Origin: Polyangium spumosum
GTDB lineage: Bacteria > Myxococcota_A > Polyangia > Polyangiales > Polyangiaceae
DNA: 64,000 nucleotides
Direction of reading: 5' to 3'
Assembly (NCBI RefSeq): GCF_009649845.1
Contig: NZ_WJIE01000004.1
Location: 310,001-374,000, forward strand
Below are positions 1,902 through 24,352 of the stretch, piece by piece. Within the stretch, counting starts at the first letter, position 1, and every line of letters starts with the position of its first letter. The translations under genes and the position numbers were made by a program. The notes beneath the pieces were generated by a model, which saw only the letters and a list, made by a program, of their open reading frames with translations, was not told the DNA's origin and did not search any database.

Positions 1902-3593
1902 ATGCGGAAAGGGCTGGCTACTCTCTGTCTTCTTGCTTCTGCCATGCTCGTGGCGCCGACCGCCTGGGCCCAAAAGGGCCCGGCGCCGACGGCGAAGGCT
2001 GGCGATGCCAAGAAGGCCGCTCCCAAGGAGATCGAGCTCGAAGAAGAGGATGGGCCCGTGACCGCGGGCCAGATGACCGAGGAGGCGGCGCAAGCGAAGC
2101 GGTTGTTCGACGCTGAGCGGTGGAGCGAATCGGCGCTGCTCCTGAAGAAGGTCGTCGACGGCGAGACGGGCGACGACGAGGGCAACAAGCAGATCGCGCA
2201 GTATCACCTCGCGATCGCGCTCTATCGCCTGCAGTTTTTCCAGGCGAGCTACGCGATCTTCTCCGAGATCGCGGACAAGCCGAATCACCTCAAGTTCAAC
2301 GAGACGCTGCTCTGGCTCTCGAAGCTCGCCACGCAGCTCCCCGAGCCGGCCGACATCATCGAGCGCGTCGGTAAGTACAAGGGCGAGCAGGTCGCGCGGT
2401 TCAACAACCCGCAGCAGCGGGATCTCTTCTGGCAGCTCAACTACCTGCTCGGCCGGTACAAGTACCGCAACCGCAACTACGAGGAGGCCATCGGCCTCTT
2501 CGAGAAGGTCGACGCCAAGAGCAAGTACTACGTGCAGGCCCAGTTCTTCACGGGCATCTCGAACGTGCAGCTCCGCAAGTCGGTGCCCGCGGTGAAGTCG
2601 TTCCAGCGCATCGTGCAGGCGCTCGACGAGGGCGTGGAGGGCGTCGAGGACGAGAGCCGCATGCGCGATCTCGCGTTCCTCTCGATGGCGCGCACGTACT
2701 ACTCGGCGTCGGTCCGCCTCGACGACAACAGCGTCCCGAAGATCGACGGCAACAAGCTCAGCGCGGCCGTCAAGTACTGGAACCGCGTCGACGTGGGCAG
2801 CGAGTACTGGCTCGACGCGCTCTTCGAGCAGTCGTGGGCGTACTTCATGGCCGGCGATTACCCGCACGCGCTCGGCAACATGCACACGATCGAGTCGCCT
2901 TACTTCCCGAACGCCTTCTATCCGGAGGCGGACATCCTCAAGGCGGTCATTTCTTTCACGATCTGCCAGTACCAGGACGCGACGACGATCGTCGCGCGCA
3001 TGCGCAAGCGGTACGAGCCGATCAAGAAGGAGCTCGAGGCGATCCTCAACCGGTTCAAGGGCGACGATGCGGAGGCGAAGTTCTTCGAGTTCTTGAAGGA
3101 CGTGCGCGCGGGCAAGGCGGCGCTCTCGCCGACGGTCAAGCCGATCGTCGAGAACGCGCTCTCGGATCGCCAGTTGCTCCGCAACCTGGAGTACGTGCGC
3201 GTGCTGGACGAGGAGGACGCTCGTTACAAGAAGGCGCCGGCCGCGTTCCGCAACTCGCCCGTGGGTGGAGACGTGACGGACGCGCTGTCGCTGGCTCGTG
3301 ATCTCGCGGTCCGCAACGCGGGCACGCTCGCGCGGGAGCGCTACCAGCGTTACCTCGACGAGCTCAACGAGCACCTCCGCGACGCCTCGAAGATCCTCAT
3401 CGACATCACGGCTGCCGAGCGAAACAAGCTCGATCAGGAGGTCGTGAGCGGCCAGCTCACGAAGGAAGAAGCGCTCGTGTTCGGCGTCGTCAAGCCGGAC
3501 GACGAGCACGTTCTGTGGCCGTTCAACGGCGAGTACTGGCGCGACGAGCTCGGTTTCTACCGGCAGGTCGTCACGTCGAAGTGCGGCAAGTAG
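1902..3593 (+). CDS. Secreted TPR protein, first gene of the Glt/Nfs-type cluster
   Basis: The 563-aa protein starts at the ATG at 1902, which gives a clear signal peptide (MRKGLATLCLLASAML, cleavage after AWAQ). It then has a charged linker (IELEEEDGPV) and helical TPR-like repeats from about residue 55 (AKRLFDAERWSESALLLKKV; YRNRNYEEAIGLFEKV; FTGISNVQLRKSVPAVKSFQ). The frame continues upstream to 1746, but that part lacks signal-peptide character. It lies 100 bp before the GltD-like gene on the same strand and probably shares its transcript. By position and export it may correspond to the TPR component GltC/NfsC of myxobacterial envelope machines, but I cannot confirm this by eye. A periplasmic scaffold role is inferred. 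Confidence 0.85.
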   Translation: MRKGLATLCLLASAMLVAPTAWAQKGPAPTAKAGDAKKAAPKEIELEEEDGPVTAGQMTEEAAQAKRLFDAERWSESALLLKKVVDGETGDDEGNKQIAQYHLAIALYRLQFFQASYAIFSEIADKPNHLKFNETLLWLSKLATQLPEPADIIERVGKYKGEQVARFNNPQQRDLFWQLNYLLGRYKYRNRNYEEAIGLFEKVDAKSKYYVQAQFFTGISNVQLRKSVPAVKSFQRIVQALDEGVEGVEDESRMRDLAFLSMARTYYSASVRLDDNSVPKIDGNKLSAAVKYWNRVDVGSEYWLDALFEQSWAYFMAGDYPHALGNMHTIESPYFPNAFYPEADILKAVISFTICQYQDATTIVARMRKRYEPIKKELEAILNRFKGDDAEAKFFEFLKDVRAGKAALSPTVKPIVENALSDRQLLRNLEYVRVLDEEDARYKKAPAAFRNSPVGGDVTDALSLARDLAVRNAGTLARERYQRYLDELNEHLRDASKILIDITAAERNKLDQEVVSGQLTKEEALVFGVVKPDDEHVLWPFNGEYWRDELGFYRQVVTSKCGK

Positions 3594-3693
3594 CGGGAGG
3601 CCCGAGGGGGCGGCGATCTGATTCGCCGCCCCGGGGGGATCGCGGCAAAGCCGCCTCCGGGTTGCGAGTTATCCAGTTGAGGAGATGACGACG

Positions 3694-6600
3694 ATGAAGC
3701 AGTCCAACGTGAGTGCGCTGCGCAAGCTCCGTTTCGTGACGGGCGCAGCGGCACTTTTCACCGCCGCCGTCGCGACGGGCCCGGCGTCGGCCGCCGATGA
3801 ATGCATCACGCAACAGGCGAAGGACGCGCTGGCGCAGTGCCCCGGCGGGTCGCTGAAGCAGAGCGCCGGCAAGAAGCCGGCGATGAGCTTCAAGTCGGCG
3901 CCGCAGGGGATTCAGCTCAAGAAGCGTGACGACCAGCTCAAGCCGACGAACCCGACGGCGTCGATGAACGCCGCGCAACGCGACGAGCGTCGCAACAGGC
4001 TGGCGGCGCGCTCGCGCCAGCTGCTGATCACCGAGATCCAGGGCCTCGAGAGCCTCTTCTCGAACACGCCGAAGAACGCGCCCGATCGTCCGAAGTTGAT
4101 GCGGCGCCTCGCGGAGGGCTACGTCGAGCTCGAGTCGGCCGCGTTCCGCGACAAGACCGAGCAGAGCATCAACGCCGACGAGGCGAAGCGCAAGAACCCC
4201 AAGGCAGAGAAGGGGTTCCGTGCCGAGGCGGCGAAGGCCGACAAGATCCTCGTCGCCGCGCGGCAGCAGGCGATCAAGTACTACACGCTGCTGAAGAACG
4301 GCTACCCGAAGTGGTGCCAGAGCTCGAACGCGCAGGATCCGACGAAGAGCACGGGCTGCACGGACGAGGTGCTCTACTACCTCGCGTACGAGTACGAGCA
4401 GGCCAACCAGCTCGATCAAGCGCGCAAGGTGTACTTCGAGCTGATCCAGAACTGGCCGCAGTCGAAGTTCATCCCGAACGCGTACCTCGCGTTCGGCGAG
4501 CTCTTCTTCAACGAGGCGCAGGGTGATCCCTCCAAGTGGCAGCTCGCGGAGCAGTCGTACCTGGAGGTCACGAAGTACCCGGCGCCCGACAACAAGGTCT
4601 GGGGCTACGCGCACTACAAGCTCGGCTACGTCTACTGGAACCAGGGTGAGTTCCCGAAGGCGCTCTCCGAGTTCAAGAAGACCATCGAGTACGGCACGCA
4701 GTACCAGCAGCTGCCGAACGCGAAGGAGCTCGCGAACTCCGCGCGGCGCGACATCATCCCGGTGTACGCGCTCGCGGCTGCGCCGAGGGCCGCGCACGAC
4801 TTCTTCAAGCCGCTCTCGGGCGACACGGGCATCAACAACGAGAAGACGCTCAAGATGCTCGACGATCTCGGCCAGAACTACCTCGACACCGGCCACTACA
4901 AGGAAGGCATCGAGCTCTACAAAGACCTCATGGCTCGCGATCGTGGTCCCAAGTTCTGCAAGTACCAGGGACACATCACCGAGGCCACGCTGGCCATGAA
5001 GTCGGGCAACAAGGACTCGATCAAGGGCGAGCTCGACCAGATGCTCGAGGTGCACAACAAGTTCGTCTCCGAAGGGCACCCCGACGACGCGAAGCTGAAG
5101 TGCTCGAACTCGACCGCGGGTCTGCTCACCGAGACCGCGATGGCGTGGCACCTCGAGGCCGTCGGATCGGGCGGCGTTCGCGGCACGGGTGACAAGAAGA
5201 CGATGACGCTCGCGACGGCGCTCTACGAGCGCGTCGTGCAGAACTTCAAGCAGGAGCAGTTCGCACGCTTCGAGTTCCCGCGCATCGTGAAGGAAGACTG
5301 GCCGAACATCTTCAAGATCAAGTACGCGATGGCCGACCTCGCGTACTTCAACAAGGACTGGGCGAAGTGCGGCCCGGCCTTCGACTCGGTCGTCGCGGAG
5401 GATCCCAGCGGTCCGCTCGCTCCCGAGGCCGCGTTCGCGGCGGTGCTCTGCTACCAGAACATCTATACCGAGACGCACAAGGACGGCTCGGACAAGAAGG
5501 GCAGCGGCAACCTCCCGAGCGCTGCGGACGGCGGCAAGAAGGGGGACAAGAAGGCCGACAAGGCCAAGTACGCCCCGAAGGAGTTCACCCCCAACCAGAA
5601 GGGCATGCTGACCGCGTTCAACCGGTACATTTGCTACATCAAGCCGCCGGAGAACGACAAGGAAGCGCAGGAGAACTACGTCGAGGTCAAGTACGCGCGC
5701 GCCCGCACCTACTTCGAGGCACAGCACTGGGAGGAGGCGGCGTTTGCGTTCCGCGACGTTGCGGTCAACCACTCCGACAAGGACGTGGGCATCTACGCGA
5801 CGCAGCTCTACCTCGAGTCGTTGAACATCCTCGGCTCGAACTCCGAGCCGACGCGGCCGTCCTGCTACGACAACATGGCGGAGGACGTGCCCAGGTTCCT
5901 CGACCTGTACTGCAAGGGCGGCAAGGAGAAGGAGAACGCCGAGCAGTGCGGGATCCTGACGCGCATCCAGCGCGACATCGAGCGTCTGCGCGCGCAGAAG
6001 CTGATCGAGTCGGCGGACGCCGGTGGCACTGGCGTGGACACGATCAAGCTGTACGAGAAGGGCGCGCAGGCCTACATGGACCTGTGGAAGAAGTACGGCG
6101 AGGCGGCGTGCGAGAAGAAGGAAGCCTCCTGCGAGAAGAGCGAGGAGATCCTCTACAACGCGGCCCGCGCGTTCCAGGCCGCGCGCCTCATCGCGAAGTC
6201 GATCACGGCGCGTCAGATCCTGCTGAACCCGAAGTACAACCTCGAGAAGACCGAGCTCGCCAAGAAGTCGATCTACGAGATCGGCGGTAACTACCAGGCG
6301 ATCGCGGTCTACGACGAGGCTGCCAACTGGTACGAGCGGTTCGCGCGTGAGAACCCGAAGATGGAGAAGGCGGCCGAGGCGCTTCAGGACGCCGTCGTGC
6401 TCCGTCTCGGTCTTGGGCAGGAGGACCAGGCGATCAAGGACGCCGACCTCTTCAACAGGAACTACGGGTCGCAGAAGCCCTCCGAGGCCGCGAAGATCGC
6501 GTTCGCCATCGGATCTCACTACATCGACAAGGAAGACTGGGACGGCGCGCGGCGGCGGCTCAGCTCGGCCATGGGCCAGATCGATCGCAACGCGACGTTC

Positions 6601-7533
6601 GATGTCCAGATCCAGGCGCACGCGATGCTCGGGCGGGTCTTCACGAAGATCAACAACCCGTCGAGCGCGACGCCCGAGTACAACAAGGTCCGCGGTTACT
6701 GGAAGGATCCGCAGGCCGCGCTGAAGAAGCTCGACGCCATCGGCGGGGGTGACGATGAGAAGCTCCGTCGTCTGGCCAAGTCGCTGACGGCCGTCGGTGA
6801 GGCGCTCTTCTTCTTCGCGGAGTTGAAGAAGAAGGAAGTCGATAAGATCCAGTTCCCCATCTACAAGGGCTCGGGTCAGCGCGACGACGTCATGAAGCAC
6901 ATCCAGACCAAGGTCATGGACTGGATCAAGAAGAAGCGGCCGGCGATCGAGCAAGCGTCGAACGAGTACGTGAAGATCGTCAACCTCGAGCCGCTGCCTC
7001 CGCCGCGCTGGGTCATCGCCGCTGGTTCGCGCGTCGGTGGTATGTGGAGCAAGTTCGTCGCCGAGTTCCGCGCCGCGCCGATTCCCAAGGAGTGGAAGGG
7101 CAACGGAATGGTCCCGGGTACGGACCTCAGCTACGCCGAGCTCCGCGGTGAGTACTACGCGAAGCTCGACGAGGCGAGCGAGCCGCAGAAGCTGTCGGCC
7201 AAGGCTGCCTTCAAGAAGTGCCTCGACTACTCGGTCAAGTATCAGTTCTTCGATGAGTACTCGCGTGCCTGCGAGGTGTGGCTGTCGAAGAACTACAGCG
7301 CCGAGTACCACCTGATCGACGAGTTCCGTGGTTCGCCGTCGCGCGTGAACTCGGGCCTCAGCGATCGCGCGCAGCCGGTGAACCTCGACGGTACGGCGTT
7401 CGTGCCCGTGCTCGATGTGCCGCAAGCCGAGAACAAGCCTGCTGCGGCGTCGGGCGACAAGCCTGCCGACGCGAAGCCCGGCACGTCACCCGAAAAGGCC
7501 GCCATCCAGGGCGCCACCACGAAGAAGAACTAG
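3694..7533 (+). CDS. gltD: Large periplasmic TPR protein, GltD/AgmU-like
   Basis: A protein of 1279 aa with an N-terminal signal peptide (hydrophobic FVTGAAALFTAAVATG, cleavage near ASA-AD) and TPR-like helical pairs along its length (VLYYLAYEYEQANQLDQARK; YAHYKLGYVYWNQGEFPKAL; YEIGGNYQAIAVYDEAANWY). The ATG at 3694 is preferred over 3685 because GAGGAG ends 9 nt before it and abuts the other. Size, export and position directly before a TPR lipoprotein, a tiny secreted protein and an FHA/AgmX-tail protein match GltD (AgmU) of Myxococcus xanthus, a periplasmic part of the gliding machine whose paralogue NfsD serves spore-coat assembly. A Lys-rich, low-complexity linker at about residues 605-630 splits the repeats. 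The symbol rests mainly on gene order and architecture. Confidence 0.8.
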   Translation: MKQSNVSALRKLRFVTGAAALFTAAVATGPASAADECITQQAKDALAQCPGGSLKQSAGKKPAMSFKSAPQGIQLKKRDDQLKPTNPTASMNAAQRDERRNRLAARSRQLLITEIQGLESLFSNTPKNAPDRPKLMRRLAEGYVELESAAFRDKTEQSINADEAKRKNPKAEKGFRAEAAKADKILVAARQQAIKYYTLLKNGYPKWCQSSNAQDPTKSTGCTDEVLYYLAYEYEQANQLDQARKVYFELIQNWPQSKFIPNAYLAFGELFFNEAQGDPSKWQLAEQSYLEVTKYPAPDNKVWGYAHYKLGYVYWNQGEFPKALSEFKKTIEYGTQYQQLPNAKELANSARRDIIPVYALAAAPRAAHDFFKPLSGDTGINNEKTLKMLDDLGQNYLDTGHYKEGIELYKDLMARDRGPKFCKYQGHITEATLAMKSGNKDSIKGELDQMLEVHNKFVSEGHPDDAKLKCSNSTAGLLTETAMAWHLEAVGSGGVRGTGDKKTMTLATALYERVVQNFKQEQFARFEFPRIVKEDWPNIFKIKYAMADLAYFNKDWAKCGPAFDSVVAEDPSGPLAPEAAFAAVLCYQNIYTETHKDGSDKKGSGNLPSAADGGKKGDKKADKAKYAPKEFTPNQKGMLTAFNRYICYIKPPENDKEAQENYVEVKYARARTYFEAQHWEEAAFAFRDVAVNHSDKDVGIYATQLYLESLNILGSNSEPTRPSCYDNMAEDVPRFLDLYCKGGKEKENAEQCGILTRIQRDIERLRAQKLIESADAGGTGVDTIKLYEKGAQAYMDLWKKYGEAACEKKEASCEKSEEILYNAARAFQAARLIAKSITARQILLNPKYNLEKTELAKKSIYEIGGNYQAIAVYDEAANWYERFARENPKMEKAAEALQDAVVLRLGLGQEDQAIKDADLFNRNYGSQKPSEAAKIAFAIGSHYIDKEDWDGARRRLSSAMGQIDRNATFDVQIQAHAMLGRVFTKINNPSSATPEYNKVRGYWKDPQAALKKLDAIGGGDDEKLRRLAKSLTAVGEALFFFAELKKKEVDKIQFPIYKGSGQRDDVMKHIQTKVMDWIKKKRPAIEQASNEYVKIVNLEPLPPPRWVIAAGSRVGGMWSKFVAEFRAAPIPKEWKGNGMVPGTDLSYAELRGEYYAKLDEASEPQKLSAKAAFKKCLDYSVKYQFFDEYSRACEVWLSKNYSAEYHLIDEFRGSPSRVNSGLSDRAQPVNLDGTAFVPVLDVPQAENKPAAASGDKPADAKPGTSPEKAAIQGATTKKN

Positions 7534-7542
7534 GAGCGAGCC

Positions 7543-9006
7543 ATGAAGAGGTTTTCGATTCTTGTGGCGACGGCTGCCCTGACGGCTGCGGTGGGTTGCG
7601 GCGGTGGGGGAGCCGGTGGGGGCGGCAAGCCCGCGGTGGATCCCAAGACCGGCCAGGCGATCGTGGACAGCAAGGGCAACGCTGTGTCCGTCGCTGCGGC
7701 GAACAAGTACAAGGACGGCCTCGAGGCCTTCACCAAGCACGACAAGGCGCGTGATTGGAACGAGGCCGTCTGCGCGCAGACGGCGGAGATCTTTCTCGAC
7801 GCTGCCGACGAGCAAGCTGGCAAGACGCTGGTCGAGGCGATCTACAACGCGGGCGTCTCGTATCAGCGGTGCAAGCAGGACGCGAAGGCGAAGGAGTATT
7901 TCAAGAAGGCGCTCGACGCGGACCCCAAGTTCCATCGCGCGCGGGTGCAGCTCGCGATCTACTCCTTCGCCGAGTCGGGGGAGAAGTCGCTCGACGCGAC
8001 GATCAATGAGCTCTACCAAGCTGCGATCGTCGACGCCCGGTTCCAGAACGTCGAGGGCCTCGTTCAGCTCGGCATGTTGCACATGAAGCGCAACAACCTG
8101 CAGCCGGACAAGGATGGTCGGACGGACCTGCAGAACGCGAAGCGCTACGCGCAGAGCGCGCTGGCCATCGACGACGGGTATCTGCCGGCGTTCAACCTGC
8201 TCGCGCTGATTTACATGGAATCGGCGAAGCAGAAGGCGGGTCGCTCCTCCAAGAAGAAGGTCGCGACGAACGTCAGCAAGGAGAAGAAGATCGACACGCA
8301 GGCTCTGGATCTCGCGGCCCTGGTTTGCTCGCAGGCCATCCGCAAGAACCCGAACTACGCGCCGATCCACAACACGGCCGGCATGATCCAGGTCGAGCTC
8401 AGCAACCTGAACGGCGCGGTCGGCGCGTTCAACACGGCGCGCAAGCTCGACCCGACCTTCTACGAGGCGCAGATGAACTTCGCCGCCGTGAACCTGCAGT
8501 TCCGCGGGTTCGCTCAGGCGGAGGAGGCCTACCGCGCTGCGCTGAAGATGCGGCCGAACGATTACGACGCGCACCTCGGGCTCGCGCTGGCGCTTCGTGG
8601 TCAGATCGACGACTCGAACTTCGACAAGATGGTCGCTGCGGCCGCGGCCGAGCTGGCGGAGGCGAAGAAGCTCCAGCCGGATCGGCCGGAGACGTACTAC
8701 AACGACGCGATCCTGACGCAGGAGTACAAGGCGAAGTCGGGCGGCAAGGACGCCGAGCCGATGTTGCTCGCTGCGAAGCAGCTCTTCGGTGAGTTCATCG
8801 CCAAGGCTGGGAGCGCGCCCGAGTATGCGGATGCGGTGAAGCGCTCGAAGGAGCGCATGGAAGAGATCGAGCAGATCATCGAGTTCAACAAGCAGACCGA
8901 GGCGGAGCGCAAGGCGGCCGAGGCGGAGGCGAAGACCCGCGCCGCCGAGGCGGAAGCCATGGGCACCGACGAGGGGGGCGCGAAGCCCGGAGGCGGGGGG
9001 CAGTGA
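7543..9006 (+). CDS. gltE: TPR lipoprotein, GltE/AglT-like
   Basis: The 487-aa protein has a lipoprotein signal peptide (MKRFSILVATAALTAAVGC), a Gly-rich spacer after the lipidated Cys, and TPRs through most of its length (AIYNAGVSYQ-type pairs; NTAGMIQVELSNLNGAVGAF; AQMNFAAVNLQFRGFAQAEE). It ends with a Glu/Ala/Lys-rich coiled coil (about residues 440-475) and a Gly-rich tail. It begins 9 nt after the GltD-like gene, so the two are surely co-transcribed. GltE/AglT is a TPR lipoprotein of the M. xanthus gliding complex, and the match in architecture and order is good. A strong terminator follows immediately. It is likely anchored in the outer membrane, facing the periplasm. Confidence 0.82.
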   Translation: MKRFSILVATAALTAAVGCGGGGAGGGGKPAVDPKTGQAIVDSKGNAVSVAAANKYKDGLEAFTKHDKARDWNEAVCAQTAEIFLDAADEQAGKTLVEAIYNAGVSYQRCKQDAKAKEYFKKALDADPKFHRARVQLAIYSFAESGEKSLDATINELYQAAIVDARFQNVEGLVQLGMLHMKRNNLQPDKDGRTDLQNAKRYAQSALAIDDGYLPAFNLLALIYMESAKQKAGRSSKKKVATNVSKEKKIDTQALDLAALVCSQAIRKNPNYAPIHNTAGMIQVELSNLNGAVGAFNTARKLDPTFYEAQMNFAAVNLQFRGFAQAEEAYRAALKMRPNDYDAHLGLALALRGQIDDSNFDKMVAAAAAELAEAKKLQPDRPETYYNDAILTQEYKAKSGGKDAEPMLLAAKQLFGEFIAKAGSAPEYADAVKRSKERMEEIEQIIEFNKQTEAERKAAEAEAKTRAAEAEAMGTDEGGAKPGGGGQ

Positions 9007-9009
9007 GAA

Positions 9010-9053: not shown

Positions 9054-9208
9054 GGACCTCCGGGAACCTTGGGTCGTGCGGGATGTCTTTTCGGGCCAGG
9101 TCGAGAGAGTCTCGAACGAAACCAGGCTCGGATCCCGTTGACCACGTCCCTGCAGGGACGGTACGATGTGACTGAAAATACGGCGAAGACTTGCGAGGAG
9201 GCTTGAAG

Positions 9209-9481
9209 ATGAAGAGGTCAACGCGTTTGGGTGCTGCGCTGGTCGCTGGTGTCGGCGTTCTTCTCGTGTCGTCGTTCGCGTTTGCCCAGGGGGCAGGTGG
9301 CGGCGCCGGGAAGAAGGACGAGGGGTACGGATACGAGTTCTCCGACGATCCCCTCAACGCTGGTGGCTTTGGGCCGAACGACGCGACGATCCGTGTTCGT
9401 CCGGGCCCGGTTCGCACGACCCTGATCCGTCCGCGCACGTCGTTCGTGCCGGAGATGCTGAAGTCGGTCGAGAATCTCTGA
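9209..9481 (+). CDS. gltF: Small secreted protein, GltF-like
   Basis: A 90-aa protein with a signal peptide (MKRSTRLGAALVAGVGVLLV, cleavage after FAFAQ), a Gly-rich linker and a short polar domain containing GYGYEFSDDPL, RVRPGPVRTTLIRPR and SFVPEMLKSVENL. GAGGAGG lies about 8 nt before the ATG at 9209. A TTG at 9191 would only add residues before the signal peptide. A tiny exported protein between a GltE-like lipoprotein and a GltG-like FHA protein matches the place of GltF in the M. xanthus G1 cluster. The mature part is about 65 residues, too small for an enzyme, and is probably a structural plug or linker. The symbol is inferred from context. Confidence 0.72.
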   Translation: MKRSTRLGAALVAGVGVLLVSSFAFAQGAGGGAGKKDEGYGYEFSDDPLNAGGFGPNDATIRVRPGPVRTTLIRPRTSFVPEMLKSVENL

Positions 9482-11759: not shown

Positions 11760-11777
11760 TGTTGGCCTGAGTCGGCG

Positions 11778-11821
11778 ACGATGCCCTGCGGGCCACGAGC
11801 TCGCGGGGCATCGTGTTTTTG
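11778..11821 (+). terminator. Intrinsic terminator after the GltG-like gene
   Basis: ACGATGCCC (11778-11786) and GGGCATCGT (11806-11814) are perfect reverse complements followed by GTTTTTG. It lies 19 nt after the gltG stop, so the two downstream TPR genes probably need their own promoter within 11822-12104. That stretch holds no gene I can support. Confidence 0.82.
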
Positions 11822-12104
11822 TTGGCGTGCGTCGCGTCGATGGGGGAGCGTCGCGGCCTCCCGAGTACGCCCGGACGCTTGGTGCTTTGGGCGAAGTGCA
11901 CAATCCAACTGGACTTTCGACGCGCCATCCGCCTATTCTCGGCGCGCAAGAGAACGTCTCGTCCTGTGCCTGGGCGGCAATTTGGGCTGCAAGTTCGAGG
12001 ACTTATGTGCGTGCTTGGTGTGGGTGGGGCTGCCATGGCCCTCTCCGCGCTCAGGTGACGCGAGGAGCGGCGGAGCCGGCTCCGAGAGAAAGGTGAGCGA
12101 AGCG

Positions 12105-16000: not shown

Positions 16001-19000
16001 GGTGACGCGGTGACGGTCGATCTCAAGTACCGGCTCGGCTCGACGCTCGAGAAGCTCGGAGACGCGCACGGCGCGCTCGAGAACTACCGGGAGATCCTGG
16101 TCCTCGATCCGGCGAACGACGGCGCGCGTGTCGCGCTCGAGAAGCTGCTCGAGAACGAGGAGCTGCGCGCCGAGGCGGCCGGGATCCTGCAGGAGATCTA
16201 CGAGACGCGCGGCGACTGGGAGAAGCTCATCCAGTCCCTCGAGATCCTGGCGGCTGCGGAGGCGGACGTCGGCACGCGCGTGAACCTGCTGCGCAAGGTC
16301 GCCCGTACGGCGGCCGAGCACCTGACGGATCTCGCGCGGGCGTTCGAGGCGCAGAGCCGCGCGCTCAAGGACGATCCGTCGAACGGCGAGACGCGCGGGG
16401 AGCTCGAGCAGCTCGCGGCGCAGGCGGGCTCGTGGGACAAACTCTTCGCGGTCTTCAGCGAGATCGCGGGGGGCCTCAGCGACGAGCGACTCGCGCGCGA
16501 GTACTGGATGCGGCTCGCGGGCATCTCGGAGAAGCTCGGCAAGATCGAGGACGCGGCGAACGGCTACAAGCGCGTGCTCGAGATCGATCCGGCGGACGGC
16601 GAGGCGCTGGCCGCGATGGATGCGCTCTATCGTCGCACGGAGCGGTGGCAGGACCTCATCGAGGTCTTCCGTCGTCGGATCGCGCTCGCGCCGGAGTTCA
16701 CGGATCGCGAGGCGCTCTTCGCGCAGATGGCCGAGGTCTACGAGGAGAAGCTCTCGCTGCCCGGCGACGCGATCGCGGCCTACCAGGAGGTGCTGCGCGA
16801 GGATCCGACGAGCCACGTGGCGCTCACGGCCCTCGACGGTCTCTTCTCGCGGCAGAGCATGTGGGAGGACCTCGCGGACAACCTGGAGCAGCAGCTCCGG
16901 TACGCCACCGAGGACGAGCACCAGATCCGGCTCATGCTCCGCCTCGCGGCGTTGCGCGAGTCGAAGATGAACCTGCTCGAGACCGCGATCGAGGGCTACC
17001 GCCAGGTCCTCGAGCGCGAGCCTTCGAACGAGGAGGCGCTCGGCGCGCTCGAGCGGCTGGGCAAGCTGCCGGAGCACGAGGTGGCGATCGCCGAGATCCT
17101 GGAGCCGCTCTACAGGGCGTCGGGCGACTACATGAAGCTCATCGGCGTGCACGAGGTGCAGGTCCGACGGAGCGACGACGTGAGCCGCAAGGTGGAGCTG
17201 CTCCATCAGATCGCGACGCTCTACGAGGACGCGGGCGGTGATCTGAACTCGGCCTTCGACACGTACGCGCGCGCGCTCGGGCACGATCCGGCGCTCGTCG
17301 AGACGCAGCAGGGCCTGGATCGGCTGGCGCGCGCGACGGGAAGGTTCCCCGACTTCGCGCTCGTGCTGGTGAACCTCGCGGAGCAGCAGCAGGAGCCGGA
17401 GCTCTCGAGCCAGCTCTTCACGATGAGCGCGCGTGTCTACGAGTCGGACATCGGCGACATCGAGAGCGCGATCAAGCACTACCGCAAGGTGCTCGAGATC
17501 GACGCGCACAACCTCGGCGCGGCCGAGGCGCTGGAGAACCTCTTCCGGGCTGCGGATCGGTACGAGGAGCTCTCGGCGATCCTGCAGCAGAAGGCCGACA
17601 TCCTCGACGAGCTCGGGGAGAAGAAGGGCGCGCTCTTCCAGGCGGCGTCGATCGAGGAGGACATCCTCCAGCGGCACGACGCGTCGATCGCGGTGTACGG
17701 CAAGATCCTGGAGCTCGATCCGGAGGATCTCGGCGCGATCGATCAGCTCATCAAGCTCTACCTCGGTTTGTCGCGGTGGGCCGACCTTCTCGCGGTCTAC
17801 ACGAAGAAGGTCGATCTCGTCGGTGATCCCGAGGAGAAGAAGAGCATCTACTACCAGATGGGCGCGGTCTACGAGAGCGAGCTCAAGGACGTGACGGCGT
17901 CGATCGACACGTACCAGCGCGTCCTCGAGCTCGATCCGGACGATCAGCAGGCGCTCGGTCGGCTCGACGTGCTCTATCAGCAGGCGCAGAACTGGCACGA
18001 GCTGCTCGGCGTGCTCGAGCACCTGTCCCGCATCTCGGCCGATCCGGCGGAGCAGATCTCGTACAACTACCGGATCGCCGAGCTTTACGAGAAGCACCTC
18101 GGCGACATGCAGCGTGCGATCGAGCTCTATCGGGATCTGCTGCAGGTGATGCCCGATCACGAGCCCACGCTGATCGCCCTCGAGGGCATCAAGAGCAGCG
18201 GCGCGGCGGCGGCGCTCGAGGCGGCCCTCGTGCTCGAGCCGATCTACGACACGGCCCAGCAGTGGGAGCAGCTGATCAGCGTCCTCGAGGTCCAGGTCGC
18301 GAAGGCGGACGATGCGTACGCCAAGGTGGAGCTGCTCCACCGCGTCGCGCGCCTGCACGAGGAGATGCTCGGCAACCACCAGGCGGCCTTCGACACGTAC
18401 GCGCGGGCGGTGACGTTCGACATCGCCAACCAGGACTCGCTCGGCAACATCGAGCGGCTCGCGATGTACGTGTCGCGCTGGAAGGACGTCGCGGCGCTCT
18501 ATGATCAGGAGCTCGGCAAGCTCGGTGAGCAGCCGGATCAGTTCGTGGAGCTTGGGCTGCGGCTCGCGGGGATCTTCGAGACGCAGCTCGAGGACGTGGA
18601 CAGCGCCGTCGCGCGCTACCGGCGCGTGCTCGAGGTCGACGCGGAGAACTGGACGGCGGTCTCCTCGCTCGACCGGCTCTTCACGATGACCGAGCGCTGG
18701 ACCGACCTCGTGCCCGTGCTCGCGCGCGAGGCCGAGTCCTCGCCGAACCCGGAGGACTCGCTCGAGTTCAAGTACCGGCTCGGCCAGGTGCACCAGCTCC
18801 GCCTGAACGATCTGACGGCGGCGATCGGCGTCTACCGCGAGATCCTCAACGCGGCGCCGGATCATCAGGCGACGCTGGAGGCCCTCGAGGGGCTCTTCTC
18901 GGCGGGCGTGAAGCAGCTCGAGATCGGCGAGATCCTCGAGCCGCTTTATCAGTCGTCCGGCGACTGGGAGAAGCTCGTGGGCGTCCTGGAGGCGCAGCTC

Positions 19001-22000
19001 GGGCACCTCACGGAGCCCGCGGATCGGCTCACCATGTACTACCGCATGGCCGAGATCCACGAGGAGCGGCTCGTCGCGCTCGACGGCGCGCTCGAGGTGT
19101 ACGTTCGCGTGCTCAAGGAGTACCCGACGGACGAGAAGACGCTCGAGGAGGTCGAGCGGCTCGGCGCGTCGACGGACAACGGCTGGAGCACGCTCGGCGA
19201 CGCATACGCGGACGTGCTCGGCCTGCACGCGGACAAGGCGGTGCAGACGAACATCGGCACGCGGCTCGCGCGCGTGTTCGAGGAGGAGCTGCGCGACATC
19301 GAGAAGGCGGAGCAGACCTACCGCTACGTGCTCGGTGTGGACCCGCTCGATCCGAAGGCGCTCGCCGAGCTCGATCGGATCTACTCGGGGCTCGAGCAGT
19401 ACGCGGAGCTCGCGGGGATCCTCGAGCAGCGGGTCAAGGTGCCGATGGAGGCCTACGAGCTCATCGAGCTCTACGGCCGCCTGGGCCAGGTGTACGAGGA
19501 GCAGCTCGGGCAGGTGGACGACGCGATTCGCGCGTTCCGCAAGCTCTTCGACGAGCTCGACACGAAGAACGAGGCGGCCATCTACGCGCTCGAGCGCCTC
19601 TACGGCGGCAAGGGGGCGTGGACGGAGTTGATGGGCGTCTACGAGCGTGAGCTCGAGATCACGGCGGACGAGGGCGAGGTGCGCGCGAAGATGGCGCGGC
19701 TGCTCATGCCGGAGCACCTCAACAACATCGCGGCCGCGATCGAGATGTGGAAGCAGGTCCTCGAGATCAAGGGCGAGGACACGGAGGCGCTCTTCGCGCT
19801 CGCGAATCTGCACGAGCGCGAGCAGCGGTGGGCGGAGCTCTGCGAGGTGCTCGAGCGGCAGTTCGACGTCGAGCCGACCGACGAGGCTCGCGTGGCCGTC
19901 CTTCTGCGTCGCGCCAAGCTCTACAACGATCAGCTCAGCCGCGATGATCTCGCGCTCGACGATTACAACCGCGCGCTCGACATCGAGTACGCGAACGTCG
20001 AGGCGCTCTACGCGATCGCCGAGATCTGGCGCAAGCGCGGGGACGACAACGAGCTCGTGAGCATCCTCCACCAGACGGTGGATCGTGCGGGTTCGGTGCT
20101 GCCGGCCGAGAACGTGGTGGCCCTCTACCGCGAGCTCGGGATCATCTACCAGACGCGCCTCGTCCAGCCGTACGACGCGATCGACGCGTGGCGGAAGCTG
20201 CTCGCGGTCGACCCGCGTGACTTCGAGGCGATGGCGGCGCTCGAGAACCTCCTCCGCGCGGAAGAGCGCTGGGTGGAGGTGATCGACGTCAAGATGGGCC
20301 GCGCGGCGGCGTACGAGGACGGCGCGGAGAAGATCCGCGAGTACCTCGAGGTCGCCGACATCTGGGAGCACCAGGTCCAGGACAAGGACAAGGGCACGAC
20401 GGCGTACGAGCGTGTCCTCGAGATCGAGCCGACGCACGATCGCGCCTACCTCACGCTCGAGGAGCTCCACAGCGCGGCGCACCGCGCCGAGCCGCTCATC
20501 GAGCTGTACCTGGCGCGCCTCGACACGCGCGAGGACACCGACGAGAAGACGGACATCCTCCGCAAGGTCGCGCGCGTGTTCGAGACGGAGCTCGAGGACC
20601 GGATGCAGGCGTTCGACGCCTTGCTCACGGCGTTCGAGCTCGACTTCGACAACATGGACACGGTCCGTTACCTCGAGCGCATGGCGCAGGCGACGAACCG
20701 CTGGCCGGAGCTCGTGCAGACGGTCAACGGGTGGCTGCAGGCGCTGAACCCGGAGAGGGATCCGCTGCGCACGATCCGGCTCTGCCTGCACCTCGCCAAG
20801 TGGTACGCGGAGGACCTCGGCCACCCCGAGTACTCGCAGCCGTACTACGGCAAGGTGCTGCAGATCGATCCAAACAACGTCGACGTGCTGCGCCAGATGG
20901 CGAACTTCCACAAGAAGGGCGGCCAGTGGCAGCAGCAGGGCCAGATGCTCACGCGGGCGCTGGAGATCGCCGTCAAGGACACCGATCGCAAGGAGATCCT
21001 GACGGAGCTCGGCGAGGTGCTCGAGAGGAACGCGGGCGACGTGGAGCAGGGGCTCTCGTTCTACAAGCGCGCGCTCGACGTGGACGCGTACCACCTGCCG
21101 GCGCTCGAGGCGCTCGACCGCATCTACACGGAGCGCGGCCTGCTCACCGAGCTCGTCGACGTCCTGACCCGCAAGGGCAAGGCGCAGACGGAGCCGTCGC
21201 AGATCGCGACCACGAAGCTGCGTTGCGCAGGGCTGTACGAGAAGGACCTCGGCCAGATCGAGAAGGCGGGTCAGGTCTACCGCGAGGTGCTCGAGGTGGA
21301 CGCGGCCAACCTGCTCGCGATGCGAGGCCTCGAGCGCGTCTACAACCAGACGCACCAGTGGCCGGACCTCGTGAGCGTGCTGGAGATGCAGCTCGACGTG
21401 GTCACGACCGAGCGCGAGCGCATCGACGTGCTGCTCAAGATCGCGAAGATCCAGGAGGAGCAGTTCCTCAAGCCGGATCTCGCGGCCGCGAGGCTCGAGC
21501 AGGTCGTGGACATCGATCCGCACCACGAGGTGGCGCTCGATTCGCTCCAGCGCTGCTACCGCCGGCTGCGGCAGTGGCACGATCTCATCAACAGCTACGA
21601 TCGCCACATCAACGCGACGATCGATCGGCAGAAGAAGATCGAGCTCTGGTCGGCGACGGCGAAGGTGTACGCCGAGGAGGTCCAGGATTTCGACCGCGCG
21701 ATCGACGCGTGGCTGAACATCACGGACCTCGACGACAAGCACATCCCGGCGCTCGAGGCGCTCGCGAAGCTCTACGAGAAGCAGGACGATACGTCGCGCG
21801 CCATCGATTACATGACGCGCGTCGCCGACCTGACCGCGGACGGCAAGCAGCGCGTCGAGATGTATTACCGGATCGGTAAGCAGCTCGACGAGAAGATGGG
21901 CGATCGGTTTGCGGCGCGCGACCGGTTCGAGATGGCGCTCGATCTCGATCCGACGCACCTGCCGACCCTCGCCGCGCTGCGTGTCATCGCGATCGACGCA

Positions 22001-24352
22001 GCGGATTGGGATACCGCCGCCCGGTACCTCGATCAGGAGCAGATGAACACCGAGGCGCCGCGCCAGCGCGCCAAGCTCCTCGTGGAGCTCGGCAAGCTGC
22101 GCGAGCAGATCGGTGAACACGACCTCGCGGTGCAGGCGTACGAGCTGGCGCTCCAGAGCGACGCCGACAACGAGGACGCGGCGATGCCGCTGCTCACGGA
22201 GTACGTGGGCACCGAGAAGTGGGCGAAGGCGGAGCCGCTCGGCGAGATGCTCGTGCGCAAGTCGGGCAAGCGCGAGAAGGCCGAGCAGCACAACCTGCAG
22301 AACACGTTCGGCAAGGTGCTCGTCGCGATCGGGAAGAACGAGCAGGCGCTCAAGGCGTACCAGGCTGCCTACGCGATCGACATGACGAACCGCGAGACCA
22401 TCGAGGGCCTCGCCGACGTCTGCTTCCGCTTGGGTGACTGGGCCGGCGCGCTGACGAACTACCAGAAGGTCCTGGGGACGACGGACGAGGCCGAGACCGA
22501 GGCGCGGGCGAACGTCTACTACAAGCTCGGCCTCATCAAGCAGAACCAGGGCCAGGCGAAGCAGGCGATCAACAACTTCGAGAAGGCGCTCGGCGTGGAG
22601 CCGGCCCACCGGCCGACGCTCGACGCGCTCGTCGCGGTCTACGACGGGCTCAAGGACTGGAAGCAGGTCGCGCACTACAAGCGCCAGATCCTCGACAACA
22701 TCATCGACGGCGCCGAGCGCTTCAAGCTGCTCGGCGAGATCGCCGATACGTGGGAGAGGGATCAGACCCCGGCGAAGGCCGTGGAGGCGCTCGAGGAGGC
22801 GCTCGATCTGGAGCCGCAGAACCACGTTCTGCTGCACCGGATGCTCACGCTGTACCAGAAGGTTGGTCAGTGGGAGCAGATGGTGGACACGCTCCAGCGC
22901 ATCGCGGACCTCGAGACGCAGCCGGGTCGCAAGTCGCGTTACTTCTTCACGATGGCGCAGATCTACCGCGACAAACTCGAGGATCTCGGGCGCGCGGTGG
23001 ACCTGTTCAACGACGCGCTGGATCTCGATCCCGCGTTCCTCGACGCGTTCGAGCGCATCAACAAGATCCTCACGTCGCAGAGGGACTGGAAGCAGCTCGA
23101 GCGGGCCTACCGGAAGATGCTGCACCGCGTGGCAGGCAAGGGGAACATCGACCTCGAGTTCACCTTGTGGCACGCGCTCGGCCTCATCTACCGCGACCGA
23201 CTCGAGGACACGAACGCGGCGGTCGAGACGTTCAAGATCGCGTCGCGGCTCAAGCCCGAGGACACGCAGGAGCACCAGATCCTGGCGCAGCTCTACACGG
23301 GCGTCGGCAACACGGAGGACGCGATCACCGAGTACCAGGCGCTCGTGAAGATCGACGCGACGAACGCCGACTCCTACCACGAGCTCTATCGGCTCTACGT
23401 GGAGCAGAAGTCGTACGATCCGGCGTGGTGCACGGCGGCGGCGCTCGCGTTCATCCGCAAGGCCGACGAGGACGAGCAGCGCTTCTTCGAGGACTACCGT
23501 CCGCAGGGGATGCTGCAGGTCAAGAACCGGCTCGACAACGAGCAGTGGCTCCGGAACCTCTTCCACGAGGAGGAGAACCTCTACATCGGCAAGATCTTCG
23601 AGATGATCGCCTCTGCGGCGCTCAAGGCGAAGATCGCGACGCTGGAGGCGAAGAAGGAGAAGCCGGTCCTCGATCCGCGGTTCCGTCAGGATCCGGCCAC
23701 GTCGACCGTCACGTTCGCCCGCACGTTCGGGTGGGCTTCGCAGGTGCTCGGCATCCCGTGCCCGGCGCTCTACGTGCGCAGTGACGTGCCGGGTGCTCTC
23801 GTGGCCGTGCCGGCCGAGCCGCCCTCGTCGGTTGCGGGTCAAACGGTCTTGACTGGGTTCTCGCCGCAGGAGCTGACGTTCATCATCGGCAAGCACCTCG
23901 CGATGTATCGCGGCGAGCACTACATCAAGACGCTGTTCCCGACGGTCACCGAGCTGACGGTGCTCCTCTTCGCGGCGATCAAGCTCGTCCAGCCGGACGC
24001 GCCTTCGCCGCCGGACATCGACAAGCAGGTGCTGGCGACGGCGCAGACGATTCGCCAGTTCATGCAGCCGATGCAGATCGAGGGTCTGCGGATGGTCGTG
24101 AAGAAGTTCGTGGCGGACGGGGCGAAGGCGAACCTGAAGCGGTGGTCGCAGTGTGTGGACATCACGGCCAACCGCGCTGGGTACCTGCTCTGCGGCGACC
24201 TCGAGATCGCGAAGAAGATCATCGCGGCCGAGCCGCAGCAGCCGGGTGATCTGCCGCCGCAGGAGAAGCTGAAGGAGCTGCTCCTGTTCTCGGTCTCGGA
24301 TCAGTACTTCGCGCTGCGGCAGCAGCTCGGCATCGCGATCGGCGGCGAGTAA
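13085..24352 (+). CDS. gltI: Giant cytoplasmic TPR protein, GltI/AgmK-like (3755 aa)
   Basis: An 11.3-kb gene encoding about 3,440 residues of helical repeats and a distinct C-terminal domain. The repeats follow a double-hairpin pattern of about 70-75 residues (W-x-x-L, then AxVYEEKL, then AIxxYxxVLxxDP, then ALxxLxxLY), read as several dozen divergent TPR/HAT-like units. Residues about 372-420 are an Ala/Val/Glu-rich linker splitting the array. There is no signal peptide or membrane helix, so it should be cytoplasmic. Size, repeats and neighbours match AgmK/GltI of M. xanthus, a giant TPR gliding protein. The C-terminal 300 residues include FSPQELTFIIGKHLAMYRGE, which looks like an M48-type metallopeptidase helix with HExxH lost. 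The start ATG at 13085 follows GAGG. Codon use matches its neighbours. Confidence 0.9.
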   Translation: MDLAQRLKHLESVRDWQGLAEELEKGLASEADATAKAGYHLRLGRLLEEKFLQGVKALKHLQDAFKLNSTLTEALRLARLVYWDLGKINMVQRLLELELKGIEDGPEATPLLVELGDVYCDIGDNEKAVSTYARALGASGGTSEEARAGLADAQVELEGWEAHVASLLQGAADPSLDGAARARLYLRAARLARRFAPAEVDDLLAKAYEANALDKQVSALYEGILVEEERSQALVDVQRRVLDASSGRARAEAALRFGTRWATRHQNAELGAKLLEEALAHDPESEGAFAYLRDLWGAKEGDWERVAVLAETIASDGGNGSPFMLAQAGGIIWQKLGNVMRARPWFEKLSQVAPQHPTLLAFETQIGERLGAAVSAPVASVPVASEPAVSAAPESAAAPEVEMEVSTEVVEEEDSVDWAKIEELKAKAQKQEQAKRFNEYVKTLVELAEAVPDASDKIAYYQQAAELYTGKFSNAAEAVKCFEAILAIDGENAQAIEYLQQSYEKRRDWEKLIGLNRRKAQMMPPGPARAEKFLEIAKLATERVKKPEVCVELWDEVLADDPENVEALNALAGLHERSKDWDKLAGVLQKQVEITADFKAKEALLGKLGALYGDRLSNDDAAIESWEQLLTLNPNERKAQEALKKLYLKVARWEDLQRFYEEQGKWDEFIRVLESQEAKETEDKNKISLLMKTAQLWLDQKGKPDRAMKAYEKVWTIDAGYLPAAEALIPLYTQANNAKGLAVAIEVKLANDQDADTKLALYREVAGLYEAKLKEPQKAFERFLSAFELAPGDEQCIDDVERVARTTGSWDSLIGSYGKTIARADEEADRDLGIALRLRLGRVLVDEVQRVDDALAQFRAVYDTDSENASAISALERLYRDTGRFTELLEIYKRKLELAQDTEETKSIRYAIAQLYVNEIKDPASAITTYNEVLQDDPADAPALEALDTLYREGEQWENYVDVLRRRIELNLGDAVTVDLKYRLGSTLEKLGDAHGALENYREILVLDPANDGARVALEKLLENEELRAEAAGILQEIYETRGDWEKLIQSLEILAAAEADVGTRVNLLRKVARTAAEHLTDLARAFEAQSRALKDDPSNGETRGELEQLAAQAGSWDKLFAVFSEIAGGLSDERLAREYWMRLAGISEKLGKIEDAANGYKRVLEIDPADGEALAAMDALYRRTERWQDLIEVFRRRIALAPEFTDREALFAQMAEVYEEKLSLPGDAIAAYQEVLREDPTSHVALTALDGLFSRQSMWEDLADNLEQQLRYATEDEHQIRLMLRLAALRESKMNLLETAIEGYRQVLEREPSNEEALGALERLGKLPEHEVAIAEILEPLYRASGDYMKLIGVHEVQVRRSDDVSRKVELLHQIATLYEDAGGDLNSAFDTYARALGHDPALVETQQGLDRLARATGRFPDFALVLVNLAEQQQEPELSSQLFTMSARVYESDIGDIESAIKHYRKVLEIDAHNLGAAEALENLFRAADRYEELSAILQQKADILDELGEKKGALFQAASIEEDILQRHDASIAVYGKILELDPEDLGAIDQLIKLYLGLSRWADLLAVYTKKVDLVGDPEEKKSIYYQMGAVYESELKDVTASIDTYQRVLELDPDDQQALGRLDVLYQQAQNWHELLGVLEHLSRISADPAEQISYNYRIAELYEKHLGDMQRAIELYRDLLQVMPDHEPTLIALEGIKSSGAAAALEAALVLEPIYDTAQQWEQLISVLEVQVAKADDAYAKVELLHRVARLHEEMLGNHQAAFDTYARAVTFDIANQDSLGNIERLAMYVSRWKDVAALYDQELGKLGEQPDQFVELGLRLAGIFETQLEDVDSAVARYRRVLEVDAENWTAVSSLDRLFTMTERWTDLVPVLAREAESSPNPEDSLEFKYRLGQVHQLRLNDLTAAIGVYREILNAAPDHQATLEALEGLFSAGVKQLEIGEILEPLYQSSGDWEKLVGVLEAQLGHLTEPADRLTMYYRMAEIHEERLVALDGALEVYVRVLKEYPTDEKTLEEVERLGASTDNGWSTLGDAYADVLGLHADKAVQTNIGTRLARVFEEELRDIEKAEQTYRYVLGVDPLDPKALAELDRIYSGLEQYAELAGILEQRVKVPMEAYELIELYGRLGQVYEEQLGQVDDAIRAFRKLFDELDTKNEAAIYALERLYGGKGAWTELMGVYERELEITADEGEVRAKMARLLMPEHLNNIAAAIEMWKQVLEIKGEDTEALFALANLHEREQRWAELCEVLERQFDVEPTDEARVAVLLRRAKLYNDQLSRDDLALDDYNRALDIEYANVEALYAIAEIWRKRGDDNELVSILHQTVDRAGSVLPAENVVALYRELGIIYQTRLVQPYDAIDAWRKLLAVDPRDFEAMAALENLLRAEERWVEVIDVKMGRAAAYEDGAEKIREYLEVADIWEHQVQDKDKGTTAYERVLEIEPTHDRAYLTLEELHSAAHRAEPLIELYLARLDTREDTDEKTDILRKVARVFETELEDRMQAFDALLTAFELDFDNMDTVRYLERMAQATNRWPELVQTVNGWLQALNPERDPLRTIRLCLHLAKWYAEDLGHPEYSQPYYGKVLQIDPNNVDVLRQMANFHKKGGQWQQQGQMLTRALEIAVKDTDRKEILTELGEVLERNAGDVEQGLSFYKRALDVDAYHLPALEALDRIYTERGLLTELVDVLTRKGKAQTEPSQIATTKLRCAGLYEKDLGQIEKAGQVYREVLEVDAANLLAMRGLERVYNQTHQWPDLVSVLEMQLDVVTTERERIDVLLKIAKIQEEQFLKPDLAAARLEQVVDIDPHHEVALDSLQRCYRRLRQWHDLINSYDRHINATIDRQKKIELWSATAKVYAEEVQDFDRAIDAWLNITDLDDKHIPALEALAKLYEKQDDTSRAIDYMTRVADLTADGKQRVEMYYRIGKQLDEKMGDRFAARDRFEMALDLDPTHLPTLAALRVIAIDAADWDTAARYLDQEQMNTEAPRQRAKLLVELGKLREQIGEHDLAVQAYELALQSDADNEDAAMPLLTEYVGTEKWAKAEPLGEMLVRKSGKREKAEQHNLQNTFGKVLVAIGKNEQALKAYQAAYAIDMTNRETIEGLADVCFRLGDWAGALTNYQKVLGTTDEAETEARANVYYKLGLIKQNQGQAKQAINNFEKALGVEPAHRPTLDALVAVYDGLKDWKQVAHYKRQILDNIIDGAERFKLLGEIADTWERDQTPAKAVEALEEALDLEPQNHVLLHRMLTLYQKVGQWEQMVDTLQRIADLETQPGRKSRYFFTMAQIYRDKLEDLGRAVDLFNDALDLDPAFLDAFERINKILTSQRDWKQLERAYRKMLHRVAGKGNIDLEFTLWHALGLIYRDRLEDTNAAVETFKIASRLKPEDTQEHQILAQLYTGVGNTEDAITEYQALVKIDATNADSYHELYRLYVEQKSYDPAWCTAAALAFIRKADEDEQRFFEDYRPQGMLQVKNRLDNEQWLRNLFHEEENLYIGKIFEMIASAALKAKIATLEAKKEKPVLDPRFRQDPATSTVTFARTFGWASQVLGIPCPALYVRSDVPGALVAVPAEPPSSVAGQTVLTGFSPQELTFIIGKHLAMYRGEHYIKTLFPTVTELTVLLFAAIKLVQPDAPSPPDIDKQVLATAQTIRQFMQPMQIEGLRMVVKKFVADGAKANLKRWSQCVDITANRAGYLLCGDLEIAKKIIAAEPQQPGDLPPQEKLKELLLFSVSDQYFALRQQLGIAIGGE

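Follow-up and report, generated by a model that had tools for sequence, protein, structure and literature searches.

A glt-type gene cluster of Polyangium spumosum and the predicted Polyangiales layout of the gliding machine

Gene content and order of the glt locus

The window analysed here is a 64,000-nucleotide stretch of Polyangium spumosum (G000:C4:310001-374000), taken from a draft genome of 10.76 Mb with a completeness of 99.7%. In the labels used below, G000 is the window's genome and C1-C6 are its contigs, C4 being the one that carries the window; other G numbers denote other genomes. Positions 1902-24352 hold seven plus-strand genes in the order gltC-gltD-gltE-gltF-gltG-LP-gltI, where LP encodes a TPR lipoprotein (Table 1). 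The intergenic gaps from gltC to gltI are 100, 9, 202, 220, 345, and 68 bases. Judged from its genes, the system to which this cluster belongs is most likely a near-complete Glt gliding machine in a Polyangiales layout.

The original prediction for this DNA had listed seven same-strand genes in this order, and both the order and its names GltD, GltE, GltF, GltG, and GltI are confirmed. The first gene, described there as an exported TPR protein and left unnamed, is indeed of that kind and is now assigned to GltC by its match to NCBIfam model NF033756 (1e-78, 265.6 bits; cut-off 450). Read from position 1746, GltC aligns with positions 104-619 of the 622 in this model. GltE matched NF033758 (1.3e-20, 73.7 bits; cut-off 225) and GltG matched NF033760 (3e-91, 306.9 bits, positions 3-649 of 650; cut-off 650). 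Since these scores lie below the equivalog cut-offs, the three proteins are divergent members of their families. The tail of GltG matched NF033768 (AgmX/PglI) with 1.4e-23 and 82.8 bits, above the cut-off of 40. No GltD or GltI model was among the NCBIfam matches of the window proteins. GltF has the C-terminal motif F(I/V)PEML(K/E)S.E in common with Sandaracinus-, G258-, and G007-type genes.

Table 1. Features of the glt locus, in window coordinates (aa, amino acids; TM, transmembrane segment).
Feature	Position	Strand	Description
gltC	1902-3593	+	563 aa, periplasmic TPR protein, signal-peptide-like start
gltD	3694-7533	+	1279 aa, exported TPR protein
gltE	7543-9006	+	487 aa, TPR lipoprotein, lipobox AVGC
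gltF	9209-9481	+	90 aa, small exported protein, signal-peptide-like start
gltG	9702-11759	+	685 aa, FHA / single TM (aa 358-376) / AgmX/PglI tail
GltG FHA domain (aa 30-94)	9789-9983	+	PF00498, 7.9e-13
GltG AgmX/PglI C-terminal tail (aa 593-682)	11478-11747	+	NF033768
LP (gltG-gltI interval)	12105-13016	+	303 aa, TPR lipoprotein
gltI	13085-24352	+	3755 aa, giant TPR scaffold, no signal-peptide-like start
GltI C-terminal domain	23603-24340	+	M48-type (gluzincin) peptidase-like, without zinc motif
Cys-rich lipoprotein gene, divergent from gltC	680-1339	-	positional GltK/CglC candidate

The same order on one strand was present in all 12 other Polyangiales loci read, and the arrangement is therefore not due to chance. 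These loci comprise four of the genus, G287, four Sorangium-like, G276, and two Sandaracinus-like ones; the stretches end inside gltI, and the far end was checked separately. This count omits two G007 loci and the second locus of G287, which has only GltD. GltG reads as two open reading frames (ORFs) in one of the 12 loci (G288). Amino acid identities fall from about 95% within the genus to 49% (GltC) and 31% (GltD) in the Sandaracinus-like loci. Outside this set, G258, from another family of the class, shows gltC-gltD-gltE-gltF-gltG, after which come an ORF with TPRs and the beginning of another that resembles gltI. In G007, from outside the class, the same five genes precede a pair of short tail ORFs, a lipoprotein-like ORF with TPRs, and gltI. 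The relatives found fit the originally suggested Polyangiales-like genome; their group labels (Polyangium, Minicystis-like, Sorangium-like, and Sandaracinus-like) are names that we assume, Myxococcus xanthus and loci titled in their records excepted.

Kinship with Glt and Nfs, and components encoded outside the window

The reference for comparison was M. xanthus AM003, found via a GltJ fragment from the PDB, and its clusters were assigned by published protein lengths. GltC, GltD, GltF, GltG, GltH, and GltJ of AM003 have 674, 1192, 89, 640, 209, and 675 aa, versus 673, 1191, 89, 640, 209, and 674 aa as published. AglR, AglQ, and AglS agree exactly (245, 162, and 194 aa), with AglQ counted from an ATG four codons upstream of the start given by the ORF caller. 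GltI of AM003 was called with 4093 aa versus the published 4132, and GltE is cut by a contig end.

Family profiles, each built from the window protein and five to six relatives, were searched against 14 M. xanthus proteins. All five scored Glt over Nfs, namely 257 versus 171 bits (GltC), 320 versus 271 (GltD), 111 versus 105 (GltE), 59 versus 51 (GltF), and 370 versus 260 (GltG); the margins for GltE and GltF are narrow (for GltF, 1.3e-16 with M. xanthus GltF and 3.5e-14 with NfsF). Individual comparisons of GltC (173 bits with M. xanthus GltC, 127 with NfsC) and GltD (6.2e-28 with GltD, 3.7e-18 with NfsD) gave the same ranking. For GltE and GltG the profiles were used because blastp alone was ambiguous. 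Trees of 24 GltC and 21 GltD sequences both grouped the window with the M. xanthus Glt cluster, G007a, G258, and the Sandaracinus-like and Polyangiaceae-like loci, and left the M. xanthus Nfs cluster outside. The question of Glt or Nfs, which had been left open for this locus, is thus narrowed to the Glt side: GltC-GltG of the window are nearer to Glt than to Nfs, with moderate tree support and narrow score margins for GltE and GltF.

The gltC of the window is the sole strong one in the genome, and no nfs-like second set was revealed by the GltC search. A distant GltC relative at C4:260699 groups with another M. xanthus cluster (C76) in the GltC tree. It lies in a second, distant cluster at G000:C4:260-269 kb (L265), about 43 kb before the window cluster. 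The GltC-like gene of the M. xanthus C76 cluster adjoins an MglB-like gene and a small GTPase gene.

GltJ, GltA, and GltB are absent from the window, as had been noted; GltA and GltB have counterparts elsewhere in the genome, and GltJ has a candidate one. The GltA/B pair is located just past the window edge, AglRQS on C2, and a GltJ-like protein on C5, so that the ''reduced or rewired'' look ascribed to the cluster is mostly a window-edge effect.

A GltA/GltB profile (A1), built only from sequences of M. xanthus (four) and G007 (two), found two matches in the genome at E 0.05, both on the minus strand: C4:302561-303178 (1.9e-17) and C4:303431-304075 (2.7e-26). The corresponding ORFs (C4:302405-303274 and 303392-304369) lie 5.6-7.6 kb before the window and adjoin an SRP54/FtsY-type gene. 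By blastp, the 289-aa protein pairs with GltA and the 325-aa protein with GltB; the OMP_myx_plus model gave 2.6e-11 (below cut-off) and 3e-24 (above cut-off) for these two, respectively. Such a pair was located near gltC in all 12 Polyangiales genomes searched, the window genome included.

Two divergent TolQ-TolR-TolR operons are present at C2:180-185 kb. The minus-strand operon (C2:180-182 kb) is most similar to the M. xanthus aglRQS operon M1, while the plus-strand operon best matches M2. AglR, AglQ, and AglS of C2 scored 181, 44, and 83 bits against M1 versus 111, 31, and no match against M2, and the M1-type TolQ proteins are 53% identical. The GTPase encoded at C3:521574 is 83% identical to an M. 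xanthus GTPase that we take to be MglA, a name supported by the match of the neighbouring gene to the MglB model (1.9e-25, below cut-off). The MglA-type GTPase itself matches just the general small-GTPase domain.

A GltJ candidate is encoded at C5:425546-427138. This 530-aa protein possesses the zinc ribbon, GYF domain, and TM of GltJ, and matched the GltJ model with 2.6e-27, at 96 bits versus a cut-off of 450; its tail match is weak (0.12). A second zinc-ribbon/GYF/TM protein of 429 aa (C4:658672-659961) gave 7.2e-23, also far below the cut-off. GltH was not detected below E 0.01 in any of 13 genomes besides M. xanthus, using an NfsH query that is weak in itself (M. xanthus GltH only 1.1e-5), and the same search revealed no NfsH-like gene in these genomes.

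M. xanthus GltK had no match in this genome at E 0.1; of 18 Myxococcaceae-type genomes 17 had an M. xanthus-type GltK, as against none of seven others. The Cys-rich lipoprotein gene divergent from gltC was considered for this role because of its position and a CxnGxPC...CxxxxC(V/L) pattern. A homologue occupies the same divergent place in all 12 other Polyangiales loci, and a similar ORF is present in G258. Profile alignment with hhalign, each value being a single comparison, gave P 0.055 against one M. xanthus GltK and P 0.013 (local) or 0.87 (global) against 16 Myxococcaceae-type GltK sequences, a 61-aa fragment (L305) being left out. With the G258 ORF added, P was 0.0029; compared by itself, G258 reached 0.00096 with the window type and 0.0025 with that of M. 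xanthus. In hmmsearch with the M. xanthus-type GltK profile, 12 of the 13 family members were equalled or beaten by 45-179 of 200 shuffled sequences and the G276 copy by 4 of 200. In a search with the window-type profile, unrelated proteins outranked M. xanthus GltK (E 7.7). With these weak or negative tests, the GltK identity of the lipoprotein was left as a lead.

The gltG-gltI interval, the end of GltI, and possible additional adaptors

The sixth gene of the cluster had been predicted to encode a TPR lipoprotein. This holds, with the start of LP moved from 11781 to 12105, where it fits better. The N-terminus then ends in LGLGC, a lipobox recognised by eye; the pattern script flagged just an earlier MASC. 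The best M. xanthus profile match of LP is GltE (69 bits), and LP may therefore be a GltE-derived TPR lipoprotein. It was found between gltG and gltI in all 12 other Polyangiales loci read, and G258 has a TPR ORF in this place. The G007 counterpart was assigned from position and a lipoprotein-like start; the best blastp match of the window LP in that genome is the protein in the gltE place. In M. xanthus and Archangium, the interval instead contains gltH and an ORF of about 560 aa. Any role of LP in outer-membrane assembly is a guess.

The ORF of about 560 aa is located between gltH and gltI in M. xanthus (L264:14948-16633; G293:C144) and in Archangium lansinium (L307:6139-7839; G301:C1). The two versions share 383 of 543 residues, and their differences at the three codon positions (102/98/233) are distributed as in a real coding gene. 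Luciano et al. (2011; PMC3169522) set aside MXAN_4864/65 (agmV) of the gltH-gltI interval as probably not actual genes.

Window GltI and M. xanthus GltI are 27% identical along an alignment of about 3000 residues, scoring 692 bits (715 in the opposite direction), and each is the other's best match among the proteins compared, which included three giant TPR proteins of this genome (one read without its N-terminal part, C-terminus included). The two giants other than GltI scored 241 and 59 bits against M. xanthus GltI. TPR evidence alone was dropped as too generic, and the identity of GltI is based for this reason on the two-way test and on its non-TPR end. As a finder of TPR giants, PF13432 proved too broad, with 128 matches. 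The last 300 or so residues are matched in M. xanthus GltI at 2.2e-15 and were not found in the two other giant TPR proteins of the genome. The giant GltI-like protein of the original prediction is upheld on both counts.

The search with this end domain matched 39 loci, 37 of them of Myxococcaceae type, and the domain was also present at all 11 further loci fetched outside that type. Of the 31 sequences aligned for analysis, 20 came from the 37 Myxococcaceae-type loci and 10 from non-Myxococcaceae loci, the remaining one being that of the window. An AlphaFold2 model computed from it reached a pLDDT of 93.2 and a pTM of 0.91. Foldseek gave no match at 0.001; the best E was 0.084, and ZMPSTE24, Ste24p, BepA, and abylysin are included in the first five. 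The top matches in VIA-align were BepA (Z 7.8; 161 residues, 5.7 A) and Ste24p (Z 7.8; 180 residues, 7.8 A), and the first 15 of 50 rows comprised BepA, Ste24p, ZMPSTE24, BlaR1, and selecase types along with other zinc peptidases at Z 5.8-7.8, where, according to the tool, values below 8 may reflect merely a common arrangement. A 14-3-3 fold match was set aside, as it spans just the first 51 or so residues.

The top fold matches of the GltI end are M48-type peptidases such as BepA and Ste24p, and it has an (E/D)-x-(T/S)-(A/S)-x-R-x-G helix that would sit where these enzymes carry the third zinc ligand. Unlike them, it has an HExxH zinc motif in none of the 31 sequences, no Pfam M48 match in any of them, and Z values under 8. 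Pfam recognised no family in the window copy and five chance-like families in one or two members each (best 0.004). Residues R184, E186, R272, and G274 (model numbering) are invariant in the alignment. Taken as a fold assignment of moderate strength, this suggests that the end of GltI is probably a dead M48-type peptidase module, which may perhaps serve for docking. Among the papers listed in our literature searches, we found no published link between GltI and an M48 or peptidase domain; one of them (PMC12288465) contains both GltI and the word peptidase, and its GltI passage does not connect them. The domain offers a concrete place at which to test how the motor is attached to its scaffold.

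Several further GltG-type proteins are encoded in the genome. A second, unlinked FHA-GltG of 678 aa (C1:1382919-1384955; L087/L088) is identical to window GltG at 606 of 677 aligned residues and has counterparts in the genus mates G233, G249, G251, G265, and G266. Two FHA-less GltG-like proteins of 539 and 398 aa with an AgmX/PglI tail are located at C6:612.7-617.4 kb (L090:7690-9309, 11210-12406), and in one of them the last 107 residues share 84% identity with window GltG. In a VIT-domain protein (C3:20.8-24.2 kb; L100:6807-10178, minus strand), there is an AgmX/PglI tail with 81% identity to its counterpart in window GltG. This suggests that the FHA-less proteins and the VIT-domain protein could be alternative adaptors.

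Two other observations concern neighbours and relatives of these genes. A 472-aa protein at C3:264102-265367 (L201:8048-9466, minus strand) resembles GltD only within a portion of its C-terminal half (aa 791-1212, 48% identity) and has a counterpart in the genus mate G233. Directly downstream of gltI, a minus-strand gene at window positions 24596-28534 encodes a 1312-aa Ser/Thr-kinase-type protein (NF033483 at 1.9e-59 and others, below cut-offs); similar genes follow gltI in G233 and also in the Sorangium-like G289, where one additional gene intervenes.

A predicted Polyangiales form of the gliding machine

We consider it probable that the window carries part of the gliding machine known from M. 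xanthus as Agl-Glt, in a form proper to the Polyangiales and with its genes distributed over several loci of this genome. In such a machine, AglRQS (C2) would be powered in the inner membrane by a flow of protons. GltG, with a predicted cytoplasmic FHA domain, one TM, and a TonB-like periplasmic tail, and the giant, presumably cytoplasmic GltI would couple this motor to a cytoskeletal track, under MglA/GltJ-type control. GltD, GltE, GltF, and GltC would transmit the force across the periplasm as far as the outer-membrane barrels GltA and GltB. LP may do outer-membrane assembly or bridging in a lineage where GltH was not found, and the GltI end, with its dead-peptidase look, may be a docking module. 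The steps known from the literature are GltA/B as outer-membrane barrels that stabilise periplasmic GltC (PMC4488436), GltI and GltG as an inner scaffold coupling AglQ to MreB (PMC13104615), and GltJ as an MglA effector (PMC12288465). A candidate protein exists in the genome for each of these steps, and none for GltH.

Several observations count against this interpretation. By blastp, the best M. xanthus match of GltE among the proteins compared is a TPR protein of another cluster (52.4 bits versus 50.1 with GltE), and GltG gives a near-tie (81.6 bits with NfsG, 81.3 with GltG). The nodes joining the M. xanthus Glt cluster are supported at 82/81 (GltC) and 83/77 (GltD), under the mark of 95/80. 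GltC, GltE, and GltG are below their equivalog cut-offs, and GltI exceeds the cut-offs of generic TPR families (PrsT, 327 versus 312; MamA, 255 versus 200). The GltJ-like protein of C5 is unlinked and far below its model cut-off, with the poor tail match given above, and the searches for GltH and GltK were negative within their stated limits. Finally, we know of no gliding assay for this organism.

An alternative that is less likely but deserves consideration is one shared machine, a single Glt cluster serving both gliding and developmental spore-coat or other surface-polymer transport. The single strong GltC, accompanied by just the distant C4:260699 relative that groups with another M. xanthus cluster, is consistent with this, and in M. 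xanthus the AglRQS motor works for Glt as well as for Nfs (PMC12288465; PMC3858216). The second GltG and the two FHA-less GltG-like proteins could be the adaptors for such additional outputs; nothing in the sequence, however, indicates a developmental role.

The cluster is unlikely to be a core-complex envelope transporter of some other cargo (protein, lipid, or polymer) unrelated to gliding. Core clusters do occur in bacteria not known to glide, as stated by Luciano et al. (PMC3169522). The GltG model also found a match at E 1e-3 in 278 of 283 genomes of the phylum, presumably including non-gliders, with none above cut-off; up to four candidates were scored per genome, many weak matches are partial, and tail- or FHA-only matches inflate the count. 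Against this alternative, the core is accompanied here by Group A homologues (A, B, F, I, and a J-type gene) and by an MglA-type GTPase.

An Nfs-type spore-coat complex proper is very improbable. Glt is paralogous to Nfs, the scores set GltE and GltF only slightly apart from their Nfs counterparts, and gltC and gltD-G form one cluster, as in nfs. Yet GltI is present here and, according to PMC3858216, absent from the published Nfs; the five profiles, both trees, and the failure to find an NfsH-like gene point the same way. That these are unrelated TPR/FHA look-alikes is refuted: several of the proteins are dominated by TPR repeats, but the match of GltG is full-length and that of GltC nearly so, gene order is conserved, the trees agree, the non-TPR end of GltI is shared with M. 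xanthus, and the best matches among the proteins compared are the M. xanthus counterparts for GltC, GltD, GltI, and AglR, and by profile likewise for GltE, GltF, and GltG, rather than unrelated TPR/FHA proteins with no reciprocal Glt or Nfs match, the outcome named at the start as speaking against the assignment.

Returning to the Agl-Glt machine, we tentatively propose a joint hypothesis, which could well prove wrong. An old, dead M48-type module, present in the window's class, in G007 of another class, and in the Myxococcaceae, would end GltI, and not the two other giants of this genome, and would dock GltG, AglQ, or the track. In the Polyangiales, LP would carry out the outer-membrane assembly step that falls to GltH or GltK in M. 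xanthus, and several GltG-type adaptors (the second FHA-GltG, the two FHA-less proteins, and the VIT-domain protein) would plug different outputs into one force-transmitting complex.

Glt-type genes in Polyangiales are not new, since Luciano et al. (2011; PMC3169522) report the Group A genes (gltF, H, I, J, K, B, and A) only in Myxococcales, including Sorangium cellulosum, and in Bdellovibrio, and place gltH and gltK as later additions. No study devoted to the glt genes of Polyangium or Sorangium was found among the papers listed, judged by title or start of abstract, in a search mostly outside subscription journals. The experimental motor work that we met concerns M. xanthus, in which glt and nfs are duplicated. 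The lineage of the window, with a single set as far as the GltC search shows, a constant arrangement of the genes, and LP encoded between gltG and gltI, represents a natural simpler design, and its layout suggests that the machine may be able to dispense with GltH.

Like the M. xanthus Agl-Glt system (clusters G1, G2, and M1), the window contains homologues of GltC, D, E, F, G, and I and keeps the D-E-F-G-I order, with A, B, AglRQS, a protein of J architecture, and an MglA-type GTPase elsewhere in the genome. Unlike in M. xanthus, gltC is joined to gltD-I, gltA/B are encoded on the opposite strand at a distance of 7.5-9.5 kb upstream of gltC, LP occupies the gltG-gltI interval and GltH was not found with the weak query, and the J-type gene, which closes the G1 cluster of M. 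xanthus, is unlinked. With the M. xanthus Nfs spore-coat complex, the locus shares paralogous C-G components in one cluster; it differs in the presence of GltI, in that no H-type gene was found, and in the profiles and trees that favour Glt, while Nfs is described as being without GltI, GltJ, and GltK (Wartel et al., 2013; PMC3858216). With the Glt clusters of other Polyangiales, the locus shares the C-D-E-F-G-LP-I order, the divergent Cys-rich lipoprotein, and, in the 11 searched, the place of gltA/B; the Sandaracinus-like loci differ from the window by an extra GltE-like gene.

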